Source of the DNA: Gammaproteobacteria bacterium
GTDB taxonomy: Bacteria; Pseudomonadota; Gammaproteobacteria; Ga0077536
Reading direction: 5' to 3'
Assembly: GCA_016191285.1 (NCBI GenBank)
Contig: JACPPA010000012.1
Location: forward strand, 186,001-250,000
DNA length: 64,000 nucleotides
The notes under the pieces were generated by a model. That model was given only the letters and a program-made list of their open reading frames with translations. It was not told where the DNA came from and ran no database searches. Position 1 is the stretch's first letter; each line of letters opens with the position of its first letter. A program made the position numbers and the translations under genes. Positions 11,001 to 59,263 of this stretch are shown here, piece after piece.

Positions 11001-11134
11001 CGGACGCCGTACCGAAGACTAGCGCTGCGCTAAGGGCGAGAGGCGAGAGGCGAGAGGCGAGAGGCGAGAGGCGAGAGGCGAGAGGCGAGAGGCGAGAAAG
11101 AATACAGCCGAAGCTTGGTGGAAACGAATGCCAT
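8053..11134 (-). CDS. Large secreted repeat-rich protein with VPLPA/PEP-CTERM-type sorting tail; likely phase-variable (best start out of frame in this sequence)
   Basis: C-terminus VPLPAAVWLLGSGLLGLWGTRRRRAT; repetitive beta-rich choice-of-anchor-like body; ORF track frame starts at 11247 without RBS, whereas ATG at 11134 has GGAGG upstream. Confidence 0.8.
11034..11096. repeat. Heptanucleotide microsatellite (AGGCGAG)8 at 11041-11096 plus one imperfect unit
   Basis: Direct count; encodes RLSPLAS repeats on the minus strand. Confidence 0.97.
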
Positions 11135-17008: not shown

Positions 17009-18175
17009 TCACGCGGGGAACAGCCTGACGAGGTTCTTCGCGATCAGAATGCGCTGAATCTCATTGGTCCCTTCGCCGATACACATCAGCGGCGCATCGC
17101 GGTAGTAGCGTTCGATATCGAACTCCGCGGAATAGCCATAGCCACCGTGGATCCGCATCGCTTCCTGTGCGCAATACATCGCGGCTTCGGAAGCAAAGAG
17201 CTTGGCCATGCCGGCTTCCATGTCACAACGCTCACCGCGCTCGTATTTCTCGGCCGCTTGATTCGTTAGCAACCGTGCCGCTTCAACGCGCGTCGCCATC
17301 TCCCCTAACTTAAGTTGAATCGCCTGGTGCTCGCAGATGGGTTTGCCGAAGGTTCGACGCTGCTGCGAATAGCGAATGGAATCCTTCAATGCCGCATTCG
17401 CAATCCCAACGCCGCGCGCCGCGACGTTGATGCGACCGAGCTCCAGCCCGCCGACCGCATGGTGAAAGCCATGGCCTTCTTCGCCACCGAGAATGCGTTC
17501 TGCCGGAATGCGGAAATCGCTGAAGCTCAACCCCACACTTTCGACCGCGCGATAACCAAGCTTTTTTAATTTGCGATCGACGGTGAAACCCGGCCCCTTT
17601 TCGGCGAGGAACATCGTCATGCCCTTATGCGCCGGCTTGGCCGCGGGATCGGTTTTCGTCAGCACCGCATAGAGACTTCCATAGAGACCGTTGGTGATCC
17701 ACATTTTCGAGCCGTTCAGCACATAGTCGCTGCCGTCGCGCTTGGCCACGGTTTTGATCCCTTGGAGATCGGTTCCTGCATCCGGTTCGGTCAAGCAAAG
17801 CGCACCGCGTAATTCGCCGGTCGCGAGCCGCGGTAAGAATTGCTCGCGTTGGGCTTGCGTGCCAAAGCGATAAATCAAAGTCCCTAGCATCAAATGCGAA
17901 TTGATGATGCCGCCAATGCTCATGAACACTTCGGCGATGGCGGTGACGATTTTCGCGTAGGTCGTCGGCGGTAACCCTAACCCGCCGTAGTCCTGCGAAA
18001 TCGTCAATCCAAACAATCCGAGCTCTTTCATCTGCTCGACCAGATCAAACGGATATTCATCCGCCTGTTCATATTTTTTGGTGACCGGTCGAACTTCTTT
18101 CTCGAGCCAATTCGTAATGGTGTCGAGAATTTGGACTTCGTCTTCGCGACTAAACATGTCGGGCGCTGTGGCCAT
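17009..18175 (-). CDS. Acyl-CoA dehydrogenase
   Basis: LCLTEPDAGTDLQGIKTVAKRDGSDYVLNGSKMWITNG, IHGGYGYSAEFDIERYYRDAPLMCIGEGTNEIQRILIA. Confidence 0.95.
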   Translation of the reverse strand: MATAPDMFSREDEVQILDTITNWLEKEVRPVTKKYEQADEYPFDLVEQMKELGLFGLTISQDYGGLGLPPTTYAKIVTAIAEVFMSIGGIINSHLMLGTLIYRFGTQAQREQFLPRLATGELRGALCLTEPDAGTDLQGIKTVAKRDGSDYVLNGSKMWITNGLYGSLYAVLTKTDPAAKPAHKGMTMFLAEKGPGFTVDRKLKKLGYRAVESVGLSFSDFRIPAERILGGEEGHGFHHAVGGLELGRINVAARGVGIANAALKDSIRYSQQRRTFGKPICEHQAIQLKLGEMATRVEAARLLTNQAAEKYERGERCDMEAGMAKLFASEAAMYCAQEAMRIHGGYGYSAEFDIERYYRDAPLMCIGEGTNEIQRILIAKNLVRLFPA

Positions 18176-18228
18176 TACCGTCTCCTGACTATTGTTTCGA
18201 TCATTTCCGCCGTTCCAAACTCATCAAG

Positions 18229-18362
18229 GCTGGTGGTCGCAGGATTCGTCAGCGCGCCTCACGCGCAAGCGAGCCAGGGATGGTTTAGCGCAGCGCGTGC
18301 GGTAGCGGAGCGATTCAGGAAGAATCGCGAAGCGGTAGCTGACGAATCCTGCGACCACCAGC
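18229..18362. repeat. Arm-variable stem-loop element, copy A
   Basis: Perfect 25-bp inverted arms GCTGGTGGTCGCAGGATTCGTCAGC / GCTGACGAATCCTGCGACCACCAGC around a core shared with 25182-25269. Confidence 0.9.
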
Positions 18363-18399
18363 CCGCGGCACTGCGTCAAACAGCCAAACCTACACGCTG

Positions 18400-19164
18400 T
18401 TAAATCGCGGTTAACCCACCATCGACCGGAATCACCGCACCGGTCATATACGAGGCTTCATCCGAGGCCAGAAACAGCGCGACATTCACGATCTCGATGG
18501 GTTCGGCCAACCGATTCATCAAATGCATGGCGGCCATTTGTTTAAACGCGCCGGCCTTGTCCTCGACATCTTTCAAATAACGCCGCGGCATATCGGTGTC
18601 GACGACACCTGGACAAATCGCATTCACACGCACGCCCTGCGCCGCCAAATCCGTCGCCATCGAGCGCGCGAGCTGCGCCAAACCCCCTTTGGACGCGCCG
18701 TACGCCGCCATCGTCGGAAATCCCACAATACCGCCGACCGAGGAATTATGAATGATCGAACCACCGCCACGCTTGACCATTTCGCGCGCCACGAGCTGGC
18801 TCAAGAGAAACGGCGCACGCAAATTCACCGCCAATAACTCGTCGAGTTCCTCCGCGGTGGTTTCTAAAAACGGTTTGCCGACCATCAGGCCGTGATTGTT
18901 GAACAGCACATCGACTCCACCGAAGACCCTGACCGCGGCTTTTACGATTTTCTCGAGGACCTTGCCGTCCCTGACATCACCGCCAACATAGGCAACATCC
19001 GCTGGGCGTTTGGCGATAAGTTTAGCAACTTCGCCGTGCGGCTTCTTGGCGAGATCGCTCGCCAACACGCGTGCCCCTTCGGCCACAAAGCGCGCGACGG
19101 CGACTTGCCCCTGACCGCCTAAGGCGCCGGTAATGATGGCTACTTTCTGGTTTAATCGGCCCAT
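18400..19164 (-). CDS. SDR family oxidoreductase
   Basis: KVAIITGALGGQGQVAVARF, NNHGLMVG, YGASKGGLAQLARSMATDLAAQGVRVNAICPG. Confidence 0.93.
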   Translation of the reverse strand: MGRLNQKVAIITGALGGQGQVAVARFVAEGARVLASDLAKKPHGEVAKLIAKRPADVAYVGGDVRDGKVLEKIVKAAVRVFGGVDVLFNNHGLMVGKPFLETTAEELDELLAVNLRAPFLLSQLVAREMVKRGGGSIIHNSSVGGIVGFPTMAAYGASKGGLAQLARSMATDLAAQGVRVNAICPGVVDTDMPRRYLKDVEDKAGAFKQMAAMHLMNRLAEPIEIVNVALFLASDEASYMTGAVIPVDGGLTAI

Positions 19165-23747: not shown

Positions 23748-24125
23748 ATGTTCGATCAGTCCTGGATGAAACGCTGGCAGGACGCGGTGAATGCCAACGG
23801 CCCGATGAGCTGGATCGGGAAACATCTCACCACGGATATCCTGCTTGGCTTCGGTGATAAAAATTTCGTGGTCTCATTCCGCAACGGCAAAATCGCCACC
23901 TTTACGGATACTCTCGGCCCGGAAACCTGCTATTACTTGGCGCTTCGCGCGCCGGCCGATAGCTGGAAAAAATTCTGTCAAAAAGTGCCGCCGCCGATGT
24001 ACAACGACATTTGGGCCATGGCCCATCCGCTGCACGGCCGCTTACAAATGGAAGGCGACCAAAAAGTACTGTGGCAAAACATGCGCGCGATGTTCTGGGC
24101 TTTCGATCGCATGCGCGAAATCTGA
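23748..24125 (+). CDS. Small SCP2-like protein (tentative), paired with adjacent hydrolase
   Basis: 125 aa; LTTDILLGFGDKNFVVSFRNGKIATFTDTLGPETCYYLALRAPADSWKKFCQKVPP; same pattern as 22981-23415. Confidence 0.55.
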   Translation: MFDQSWMKRWQDAVNANGPMSWIGKHLTTDILLGFGDKNFVVSFRNGKIATFTDTLGPETCYYLALRAPADSWKKFCQKVPPPMYNDIWAMAHPLHGRLQMEGDQKVLWQNMRAMFWAFDRMREI

Positions 24126-24157
24126 ACGGCACGGCTCATCGTAACGGGAGAATTTCA

Positions 24158-25012
24158 GTGGCAAAAATAGAACCAATTGTTGGCAAATATATTTGGGTGC
24201 CGTTCGAGGGCACTGAATACCGCATGTACTTCGAGGAAGCCGGGAATCCCAAAGGCATCCCGATGATCTGCTTACACACCGCGGGCACTGACGGTCGCGA
24301 ATGGCGACATCAGCTATGCGACGAACGGATCGGCAAGCACTTCCGCGTCATCGCCATCGACCTGCCACGGCACGGCAAATCCATTCCGCCGTACGAGTGG
24401 TACAAAGAAAACGAAGAATACAAGCTCACCGCGAAATTTTATTCAGGGATCGTGATGGCCTTCAGCACGGCGCTCGGCCTCGACAAACCGGTCATCATGG
24501 GCAGCTCGATGGGCGGCAATATCTGCCTCCATTTGGCGGCGAACTACGAAAATGACGTGAAAGCGCTGATCGCGATCGAAGCCTGCGAATGGTCGCCGGG
24601 CTGGCATCTCGATTGGCTGCGCCATGCGCATATTCATGGCGGCGAAGTATGCGCGACGTCGGTGTTCGGCCTAATGGCGCCGCAAAGCCCGGACAAATAT
24701 CGCTGGGAAACCTGGTGGTATTACTCGCAGGGTGGCCCGGGAATTTTCAAGGGCGATCTCTACTTCTACAGTTTTGACCACGATTTCCGGGGCAAGACCG
24801 AGAAGCTCTCGGGCAAGGTGCCGACGTTCTACATGACCGGCGTTTATGACTTTGCGTGTACCCCCGAAATGACCGAGGAAGCGGCGAAAAAGCACAAGAA
24901 TTCGGAATGCATCATCATGGAAGAAATCGGTCACTTCCCGATGAGCGAAAACCCCGAGGTGTTCAACCGCTACCTGTATCCAGTCTTGGATAAAATCGTC
25001 GCGCTGAAGTAG
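24158..25012 (+). CDS. Alpha/beta hydrolase (GTG start)
   Basis: MICLHTAGTDGREWRHQLCDERIGKHFRVIAIDLPRHGKS, GSSMGGN nucleophile elbow, EIGHFPMSENP; RBS GGGAG before GTG. Confidence 0.92.
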   Translation: MAKIEPIVGKYIWVPFEGTEYRMYFEEAGNPKGIPMICLHTAGTDGREWRHQLCDERIGKHFRVIAIDLPRHGKSIPPYEWYKENEEYKLTAKFYSGIVMAFSTALGLDKPVIMGSSMGGNICLHLAANYENDVKALIAIEACEWSPGWHLDWLRHAHIHGGEVCATSVFGLMAPQSPDKYRWETWWYYSQGGPGIFKGDLYFYSFDHDFRGKTEKLSGKVPTFYMTGVYDFACTPEMTEEAAKKHKNSECIIMEEIGHFPMSENPEVFNRYLYPVLDKIVALK

Positions 25013-25033
25013 CAAGCGCGCCGTCTCTCGCGC

Positions 25034-25074
25034 AAGAGCCGTTCGTTCAACGAGTTGAACGAACGGCTCTTTTG
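25034..25074 (+). terminator. Strong rho-independent terminator
   Basis: AAGAGCCGTTCGTTCAAC ga GTTGAACGAACGGCTCTT then TTG, 18-bp perfect stem just after the hydrolase stop. Confidence 0.85.
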
Positions 25075-25156
25075 TTGAATCGATTGTTGGCGTGCAATAC
25101 ATCCAAACGATTCGTACTTCTGGCCGTTGCGGTTTAATCGCGACTCTAGTGCTGTA

Positions 25157-25294
25157 AGCCGATGGTTGGGGTATTCGGCGGCTACCGCTCCGCGATTCGT
25201 CCTTGAATCGCTCCGCTACCACGCGCGCTGCGCTATTCCAGTCCCTGGATCGCTTGCGCGCGAGGCGCGCCGCCGAATACCCCAACCATCGGCT
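25157..25294. repeat. Arm-variable stem-loop element, copy B (core reverse-complementary to copy A)
   Basis: 25-bp perfect arms AGCCGATGGTTGGGGTATTCGGCGG / CCGCCGAATACCCCAACCATCGGCT, unrelated to the arms of copy A. Confidence 0.9.
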
Positions 25295-25390
25295 CGAAGC
25301 GTTTGTGGCACCCGCCCCCGCGTAAATTGAAACTACGTAGAGGCGCTTCTTCGGATTCCGAATTGCGCCACGGACTTTCGAGGAGCGGCG

Positions 25391-25478
25391 GACCTACCTG
25401 TTGAAAACCGTCGGCCGCAGGGACGCGGCCGTCGAGCGTCCAAGGACGGATTCACAGCGTGTTTTCAACAGGTAGGTC
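25391..25478. repeat. Arm-variable stem-loop element, related type C
   Basis: 18-bp perfect arms GACCTACCTGTTGAAAAC / GTTTTCAACAGGTAGGTC; inner hairpin CGGCCGC AGGGAC GCGGCCG. Confidence 0.8.
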
Positions 25479-25669
25479 TGTCGCGCCCACACGCTTAAGT
25501 CACATCGCAATTCGGGGCCGGGTTGCGTCCTCCGTTGGATAGGAGCTCACGGCATTATTTGCTACGATTGGCTGACCTCGGCAGAGGTCTCGGCGCGACG
25601 CAAGGTTCGCGTCCCAGCAGAACGTTATCGAAATAACCGAACCGGGCGTAAGCCTGACCCTGGAGTCCT

Positions 25670-26830
25670 ATGACCGAGCATTCCGAGACGATTGCGCAGT
25701 TGCGCGACACCGTAAAGCGAGTATGCGATGACCATCCCGGTGAGTACTGGCGCGCCAAAGATCGCGACCGCGCGTACCCGAGCGAATTCGTCCAAGCGCT
25801 AACCGACCTAGGTCTGCTGGCCGCGCTGGTCCCGGAAGAATACGGCGGCAGCGGCTTGCCCTTGGCGCTAGGCGCTGAAATTCTTAAAGCCGTCCATGAA
25901 TTCGGCGGCAATGCCGGCGCCTGCCATGCCCAGATGTATACGATGGGCACGGTGCTTCGACACGGGAGCGAGGCGCAAAAAGACCAATACCTGCCGGGGA
26001 TCGCGACCGGTGCGCTGCGTCTACAAGCCTTTGGTGTGACTGAACCCACGGCTGGTACCGACACCACCAACATCTCAACCTTCGCCGAGCGCAAGGGCGA
26101 TCACTATGTCGTGAATGGTCAAAAAGTTTGGACGTCGCGCGCGGAACATTCGGATTTGATGCTACTGCTCGCACGCACCACGCCGAAGGATCAAGTGAAG
26201 AAGCGCAGCGAAGGGTTGTCGGTGTTCTTGATCGATATGCGCGAGGCCAAGGGTCATGGCATGACCATCAAACCCATTCGGACGATGATCAATCATTCGA
26301 CCACCGAAGTTTTTTTCGACAATCTCAAAATTCCGGCCAGCAGTTTGATTGGCGACGAAGGCCAAGGCCTGCGGTACATCCTCTCCGGCATGAACGCCGA
26401 GCGTATTCTGGTCGCTTCCGAGTGTATCGGGGACGCCCGCTGGTTCATCAAGAAAGCGCGCGACTACGCCTGTGAGCGCAAAGTGTTCGGACGCCCCATC
26501 GGCCAGAATCAGGGGATTCAATTTCCGATTGCGCGTGCTTATGCCGAAATGGAAGCAGCGAATCTCGTGACAGAACGCGCCGCCGAACTCTATGACCACT
26601 CCAAGCCCTGTGGCACGCAAGCCAATATCGCGAAGCTTCTGGCCTCGGAAGCCTCGTGGCATGCGGCAGATACCTGCATGCAGACCTTCGGCGGGTTCGC
26701 GGTGGCGGAAGAATACGACATCGAGCGTAAATTTCGCGAAACCCGGCTGTATCAAATCGCACCGATCTCGACCAATTTAATTTTGTCTTACGTCGGCGAA
26801 CACGAGCTCGGTATGCCGCGCTCGTATTAG
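25670..26830 (+). CDS. Acyl-CoA dehydrogenase
   Basis: LVPEEYGGSGLPLALGAEILKAVHEFGG, GVTEPTAGTDTTNISTFAERKGDHYVVNGQKVWTSRAEHSD, TFGGFAVAEEYDIERKFRETRLYQIAPISTNLILSYV. Confidence 0.94.
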   Translation: MTEHSETIAQLRDTVKRVCDDHPGEYWRAKDRDRAYPSEFVQALTDLGLLAALVPEEYGGSGLPLALGAEILKAVHEFGGNAGACHAQMYTMGTVLRHGSEAQKDQYLPGIATGALRLQAFGVTEPTAGTDTTNISTFAERKGDHYVVNGQKVWTSRAEHSDLMLLLARTTPKDQVKKRSEGLSVFLIDMREAKGHGMTIKPIRTMINHSTTEVFFDNLKIPASSLIGDEGQGLRYILSGMNAERILVASECIGDARWFIKKARDYACERKVFGRPIGQNQGIQFPIARAYAEMEAANLVTERAAELYDHSKPCGTQANIAKLLASEASWHAADTCMQTFGGFAVAEEYDIERKFRETRLYQIAPISTNLILSYVGEHELGMPRSY

Positions 26831-29525: not shown

Positions 29526-29583
29526 GGACGCGCGCGGCGCGACCAAGATCGGACTCAGATCTCTGCGATGATGATTCACATAC

Positions 29584-29740
29584 CCCTCACCCCGGCCCTC
29601 TCCCGCAAGGGGAGAGGGGGAAATGAGGTGTGCCCAATCTTTCCCCTCACCCCGGCCCTCCCGCAAGGGGAGAGGGGGGAAATTCGAGGTGCCCATCTTT
29701 CCCCTCTCCCCTTGCGGGAGAGGGTTAGGGTGAGGGGCAT
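29584..29740. repeat. CCCTCACCCCGGCCCTCTCCCGCAAGGGGAGAGGG-type intergenic repeats, three copies
   Basis: Two direct copies and one inverted (CCCCTCTCCCCTTGCGGGAGAGGGTTAGGGTGAGGG). Confidence 0.85.
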
Positions 29741-59096: not shown

Positions 59097-59263
59097 ACCA
59101 CTGAGATCTTGCCGCGGAGCCGCTGTACATATTAGGCAATTCGTTCGAGGTCACTGCGGTTGTCGGGTGCAGGCTCCACAATGACGCTGCGCGCGCACCC
59201 AACAACCGCCCCATACAAGATCGGCTCGTTGCATGCGTCTATTTTTGGGTGACGGTCGTTACT

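Follow-up and report, generated by a model that had tools for sequence, protein, structure and literature searches.

The window, the whole stretch of 64,000 nucleotides that we analysed, carries between a hydrolase gene and an acyl-CoA dehydrogenase operon a long palindrome with a structured core, here called copy B. An inverted relative, copy A, lies elsewhere in the same window. The locus raises the question of whether such an element is a palindromic piece of mobile DNA or whether one of its strands serves as a folded RNA, and, in the latter case, what such an RNA might bind. We consider it somewhat probable (about 0.55) that copy B is a dispersed, mobile-DNA-borne structured RNA with a paired CsrA site, the copies of which titrate CsrA; transcription, binding and titration are the parts that we infer.

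Anatomy of copy B and its relation to copy A

Copy B consists of a perfect 26-bp inverted repeat enclosing a core of 86 nt (Table 1). The first-pass annotation had recognised the palindrome correctly, but its length, given there as 25 bp, needed correction. The strong terminator that it had placed upstream was found again as a terminator-like hairpin. In the predicted fold of the minus strand of B, as of the plus strand of A, a long stem leads via a three-way junction into two hairpins with GGA loops. Folding of copy B was exceptionally favorable on both strands (z about -11, with 0 of 200 shuffles as good). Only the minus strand, which is antisense to the flanking operon, shows the GGA loops. 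Covariance model R1 scored copy B at 152 bits (E 1.6e-32), copy B being among the sequences from which the model was built.

Table 1. Coordinates of copies A and B, their parts and neighboring features in the window.
Feature	Position	Strand	Description	Basis
Copy A	18228-18363	+ (GGA strand)	Same family as B; between SDR gene (18400-19164, -) and acyl-CoA dehydrogenase gene (17009-18175, -)	
Terminator-like hairpin	25034-25073	+	3' of hydrolase gene (24011-25012)	Sequence, scan
Whole copy B	25149-25298	-	Takes in 3' flank CAGCAC common to several copies	Match to covariance model R1
Copy B arm 1	25157-25182	-	26 nt; predicted 3' arm of long stem on GGA strand	Perfect inverted repeat, fold, 14-copy covariation
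Copy B core hairpin 2	25192-25211	-	GCGAUUC-AAGGAC-GAAUCGC on minus strand, ANGGAN hexaloop	Fold; GGA in 14/14 copies
Copy B core hairpin 1	25222-25262	-	Apical stretch 25237-25249 = UCCAGGGACUGGA on minus strand, ANGGA in loop	Fold; GGA in 14/14 copies
Copy B arm 2	25269-25294	-	26 nt; predicted 5' arm of long stem on GGA strand	Perfect inverted repeat, fold, 14-copy covariation
Third-type element	25386-25484	+	18-bp perfect arms 25391-25408 / 25461-25478; GGA hairpin CGGCCGCAGGGACGCGGCCG; TwoAYGGAY/Ysr224-like	Fold, z -7.7

The core of B is that of A in inverted orientation, as had been claimed, with identity at 79 of 89 aligned core positions. The arms of the two copies had been described as unrelated, which did not hold: in register they were identical at 14 of 22 and 14 of 21 positions (about 65%), indicating that they are diverged homologues carrying compensating changes.

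Copies, paired arms and gene context

The family of copies A and B, here type I, has 6 full copies in the genome that holds the window (G000), at least 11 in a sister species (G003) and one in another genus of the family (G013). In this last copy both loops were kept (CCATGGATGG and GCCAGGGATGGC on the GGA strand), whereas the arms and the stem of the second hairpin differ. A tight exact-pattern scan of the genome collection gave matches only in the sister MAG and in one MAG labelled Acidobacteriaceae. We also note that a public MAG labelled Klebsiella pneumoniae (CAMATU01 records, L057-L065) is evidently the sister species, and that its label looks wrong. Among plasmids, phages and viral contigs we found no real match to the element, nothing beyond short stretches in plasmids of Burkholderia and Sphingomonas, and an origin from a plasmid or phage was therefore rejected. 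A second family, type II, is represented by about 15 copies in G000 and follows the same plan; a half copy is present at positions 59169-59212 of the window (G000:C49:245169-245212). Of other repeats in the window, 29583-29737 is a long inverted repeat (CCCCTCACCCCGGCCCTCTCCC...) of another dispersed family, of which G000 has many copies, and 11021-11104 is a tandem repeat of the heptamer GGCGAGA.

The type I element is accessory. At the site in G005 that is orthologous to that of copy B, the hydrolase and acyl-CoA dehydrogenase neighbors are the same and the intergenic region measures about 86 bp, compared with 657 bp. At the sites in G001, G002 and G004 that are orthologous to that of copy A, a few tens of bp are found in place of 224, with no palindrome remaining. 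These empty sites contained neither core nor palindrome nor arm sequence, indicating that the arms arrived together with the core. In the sister species, type I copies are enclosed by terminal repeats, CTAAATAGCGGAGCGGAAATACC, that belong to a repeat family found at 41 sites of G000; read by eye, these repeats may be IS630-type ends with a TA target duplication. Around the type I copies of G000, including A and B, no terminal repeats were recognisable, and the inner arms are still perfect, suggesting that the hairpin lasts longer than the ends that served for moving. The same MITE-like repeat also encloses varied palindromes in G000 (for example L142-L170; CGTCATTCCGGC type and others), and no autonomous partner was identified for it. 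One copy of the sister species (L052:1-215, contig C12 of G003) has its second GGA hairpin interrupted by another inverted repeat (GGGGTCGGAGTCC...GGACTCCGACCCC).

Across 14 type I copies, 18 of 19 arm pairs showed changes on both sides and 98.8% of cells were paired; this pairing was better than in all shuffles and slides, none of which came close. The loci L002 and L006 illustrate the pattern, with cores identical at 89 of 90 positions and arms at only 11 of 22 and 10 of 21, pairing being kept. The earlier proposal of arms that are free in sequence but constrained to pair is strongly supported by these counts, which nevertheless overstate the independence of events since copies within one genome are related, and which come from MAFFT alignments and structures derived from their consensus, a procedure that favors structure somewhat.

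The residual arm mismatches are not symmetric between the strands. Read on the GGA strand, they comprised 10 G.U and no A.C in type I, and 16 G.U and 2 A.C in type II, or 26:2 for both types combined. Counted by distinct columns, the ratio was 18:2 (p = 4e-4, uncorrected for relatedness). The control consisted of the outer terminal repeats around the G003 copies; these are expected to behave as double-stranded DNA and gave 2:5 (Fisher p = 0.001 against the arms). In independent sets from two other families of the class, G108 and G220, the ratios for the GGA strand were 29:9 and 21:2 (together 50:11). As the copies are in mixed orientation to genes, a simple strand bias of mutation is unlikely to be the cause. 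The G.U excess on the GGA strand, together with its absence from the terminal-repeat control, indicates that the selected form is the single GGA strand. This is most likely RNA, although G.T pairs occur in single-stranded DNA as well.

No sigma70-type promoter was seen around copy B (24950-25700). Flanking genes of the copies were assigned by a simple longest-ORF rule, and their orientation over all copies was mixed, with no consistent sense transcript. In view of this mixture and of the antisense position of the GGA strand, a role of copy B as a sense 5' leader of the acyl-CoA dehydrogenase operon, as had been suggested, is not supported. Copies of types I and II are mostly located just 3' of stop codons (15 convergent of about 28 sites, very few divergent), while three G108 sites were called divergent and G220 sites were mixed. 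An orientation bias towards sense 3' UTRs, strong-looking for type II, was dropped, since most sites are convergent and orientation is uninformative there. Restricting the count to codirectional sites gave 7 sense and 3 antisense for types I and II, and 14 and 9 when G108 and G220 were included.

GGA loops, the proposed CsrA link and related RNAs

GGA was kept in 28 of 28 type I loops and 22 of 24 type II loops. Over all loops counted, 70 of 72 contained GGA and 58 of 72 ANGGA, and the adjoining loop letters vary. The loops of copy B, AGGGAC and AAGGAC, conform to ANGGA but not strictly to AYGGAY. Published CsrA/RsmE sites include the ANGGAN hexaloop, the SELEX sequence RUACARGGAUGU and the CsrB repeat CAGGA(U/A/C)G, and the window bridged by a CsrA dimer is 10-63 nt (PMC7652899). 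The sequence criterion for a CsrA/RsmA-binding RNA is at least two apical hairpin loops with GGA (ANGGAN) at this distance; type I elements have two, 34-40 nt apart. The proposed link to CsrA thus consists in loops that agree in sequence, shape and spacing, and is supported by a prediction made earlier and independently for this architecture (see below). The hairpins selected by SELEX had short stems, and CsrA binding does not call for a long stem of high stability (PMC7652899), so that the long arms require another reason. G000 has one csrA gene. No relevant publication came up in literature searches on CsrA in combination with repeats or MITEs. When hairpin loops were counted in 841 kb, GGGA was the commonest within CA..TG closings, at 6 of 56 over both strands, where numbers are small and the complement TCCC represents the same sites. 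A different repeat (L081:19420-19642 and L089 at about 6162) contains a hairpin, GGCACAGGGATGTGCC, that exactly matches the CsrA SELEX core ACARGGAUGU; the L081 copy of this hairpin sits within 48-nt arms.

A further element built on the plan of copy B, missed in the first-pass annotation, lies 97 bp downstream of it (25391-25478), with its GGA loops on the plus strand, opposite to B, and with the core that recurs across the class. This third type has additional copies in G000 in which the core is the same and the arms are different. At four of the six type I sites in G000 a second GGA element accompanies the type I copy, mostly facing the other way, and elements of the same plan adjoin type I copies at L094:15291-15434, L092:2484-2625 and L095:10984-11126. 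The arm-variable design recurs in the two other families, with 14 copies in G108 and 6 in G220, where the double-hairpin cores are constant and the long arms differ. As both sets were found via the second hairpin, only the loop of the first hairpin counts as independent evidence; in G220 it reads ANGGAN in 6 of 6 copies, with both N free. Both sets align with the third-type element of G000 (alignment A2), and 30 of 39 pairs in this alignment covary on both sides, with shuffles and slides far below. Judged from this alignment, the third-type element is homologous to the elements of the two other families. A model of the third type found some type I and II copies weakly on their GGA strand (L002, 30.8 bits, E 5e-5) and did not find copies A and B. 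Class-wide, the hairpin GCCA-KGGA-UGGC was present in 199 of 274 sampled genomes; the genome richest in it had 199 sites and none of the reversed control, which is itself not a hairpin. In two other families, GGA hairpins (GCCAGGGATGGC) directly adjoin tRNA-like sequences (L229, L234 and L246).

A scan of the window against Rfam at the gathering threshold gave no match. The closest known design is that of TwoAYGGAY RNA (Rfam RF01731, clan CL00106), listed by Weinberg et al. 2010 (PMC2864571) and later predicted to bind CsrA, its external stem being poorly conserved (PMC4333381). It shares with our elements a long, poorly conserved outer stem around two hairpins with GGA-type loops and the proposed binding of CsrA, and this architecture is predicted for copy B, with ANGGA loops in place of strict A-Y-GGA-Y loops. 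The TwoAYGGAY covariance model placed 4 of 6 G220 elements above its threshold (44.1-47.5 bits against 43) but, up to E 10, matched neither copy A nor copy B nor the other type I and II copies scanned. By the curated test copy B is hence not a member, though alike in design as far as sequence and predicted fold go. Types I and II depart from TwoAYGGAY in having a longer, interrupted hairpin 1 and another junction sequence (GCGCCUC..GGUAGCGGAGC). Moreover, the cited passages do not describe TwoAYGGAY as a dispersed mobile repeat.

Ysr224 (Rfam RF02770), a multicopy Yersinia sRNA, resembles type I elements in its multiplicity; in Yersinia ruckeri it is transcribed, and its expression differs between copies (PMC12112432). 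The reverse complement of its model resembles the core sequence of the neighbor at 25391-25478 (GCUCGA..CAUCCCUGG), but the match reached only 24.9 bits (threshold 70) and was on the UCC-loop strand; copy B itself gave no match. The CsrB/RsmX/Y/Z RNAs, which sequester CsrA, likewise have GGA-loop hairpins. They are, however, dedicated sRNA genes with many such hairpins, whereas here there are two per element, in dispersed copies, with no promoter or terminator of their own recognised. Correia/NEMIS-type and other bacterial MITEs are similar in being dispersed, palindromic and intergenic, with terminal repeats and the capacity to form RNA hairpins. They differ from the present elements, in which the arms are freely variable, two conserved GGA hairpins are located at the tip, and copies A and B have no recognisable terminal repeats. 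An integron attC site was rejected: it needs RYYYAAC 5' and GTTRRRY 3', and the arms read GTTGGG...CCCAAC, in reversed order.

Competing explanations and significance

In our preferred reading, copy B represents a dispersed element that was once mobile and that would function as a single strand, namely the minus (GGA) strand, most likely as RNA. This strand is predicted to fold into a long stem, free in sequence but kept paired, a three-way junction and two hairpins, whose ANGGA loops fit the CsrA/RsmA site and have a spacing that would allow one CsrA dimer to clamp both. The element would become a CsrA-binding RNA wherever its GGA strand is transcribed, be it as its own transcript, in a 3' UTR or by antisense read-through, and the many copies would jointly titrate CsrA. 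Anatomy, number of copies, empty sites, covariation on both sides, the strand bias of the mismatches, the kept GGA loops and the single csrA gene are observations; the sponge role we infer.

An alternative that we judge unlikely is a MITE-like palindrome that acts at the DNA level without RNA function, its arms kept complementary by template switching (quasipalindrome correction) at replication, with each change copied across. Template switching homogenises the arms of inverted repeats and makes multi-base compensatory changes (PMC8794818), the strongly diverged yet paired arms of L002 and L006 around nearly identical cores resemble block-wise rewriting, and the G003 copies lie within MITE-type terminal repeats. 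The process predicts no strand preference, however, whereas the arms, unlike the terminal repeats, show G.U excesses of 26:2 and, in two other families, 50:11; it also leaves unexplained why GGA persists in 70 of 72 loops amid varying neighbor letters. Template switching may still be the mutation mechanism on which RNA-level selection acts. The mobile core could also be thought always to land inside pre-existing palindromes, in keeping with arms that differ between copies with nearly identical cores. This case, named in the first-pass annotation as one that would overturn its view, is contradicted for A and B by the empty orthologous sites, which have no palindrome or arm sequence. With arms homologous in register between copies, and perfect palindromes of 26-30 bp otherwise too rare to be targets, we find it barely credible.

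Strand asymmetry alone fits RNA and single-stranded DNA alike, and would also be explained by a single-stranded-DNA mobile element whose folded hairpins are recognised by a Y1/HUH enzyme of the REP/REPIN-RAYT or IS200/IS605 type. Y1-type genes gave 7 matches in G000 and 7 in G003, and are absent from the element-free G001. RAYT genes are usually flanked by their REPs, but no element copy was near any of nine Y1 loci inspected, and REP/REPIN with RAYT was rejected. Since, in addition, G002 and G004 have a Y1 match and no element, the G003 copies are inside terminal repeats of cut-and-paste type, and the loops match the site of an RNA-binding protein, we rate this explanation as quite improbable. 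Improbable, too, is a bidirectional 3'-end hairpin that stabilises or insulates neighboring transcripts in a REP/BIME-like manner, with GGA loops incidental. The location of types I and II just past stop codons, often between convergent genes, speaks for it, but it leaves both the GGA loops and the strand bias unaccounted for, and it sits poorly with the divergent G108 sites and the mixed G220 sites.

CsrA exerts global control over metabolism and lifestyle, and in model species a small number of dedicated sRNAs keep it in check. Should widespread intergenic repeats prove to be RNAs that bind CsrA, the repeat content of many genomes would be a hidden layer of regulation, and both TwoAYGGAY and Ysr224 would find their explanation as members of a single dispersed family. 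More tentatively, and against the odds as we see them, genomes of Gammaproteobacteria may carry tens to hundreds of mobile-DNA-borne double-GGA-hairpin RNAs with ever-rewritten stems, a distributed and evolvable CsrA sponge in which copy number would set free CsrA. The elements also offer a natural experiment on selection versus template switching in keeping RNA stems paired.
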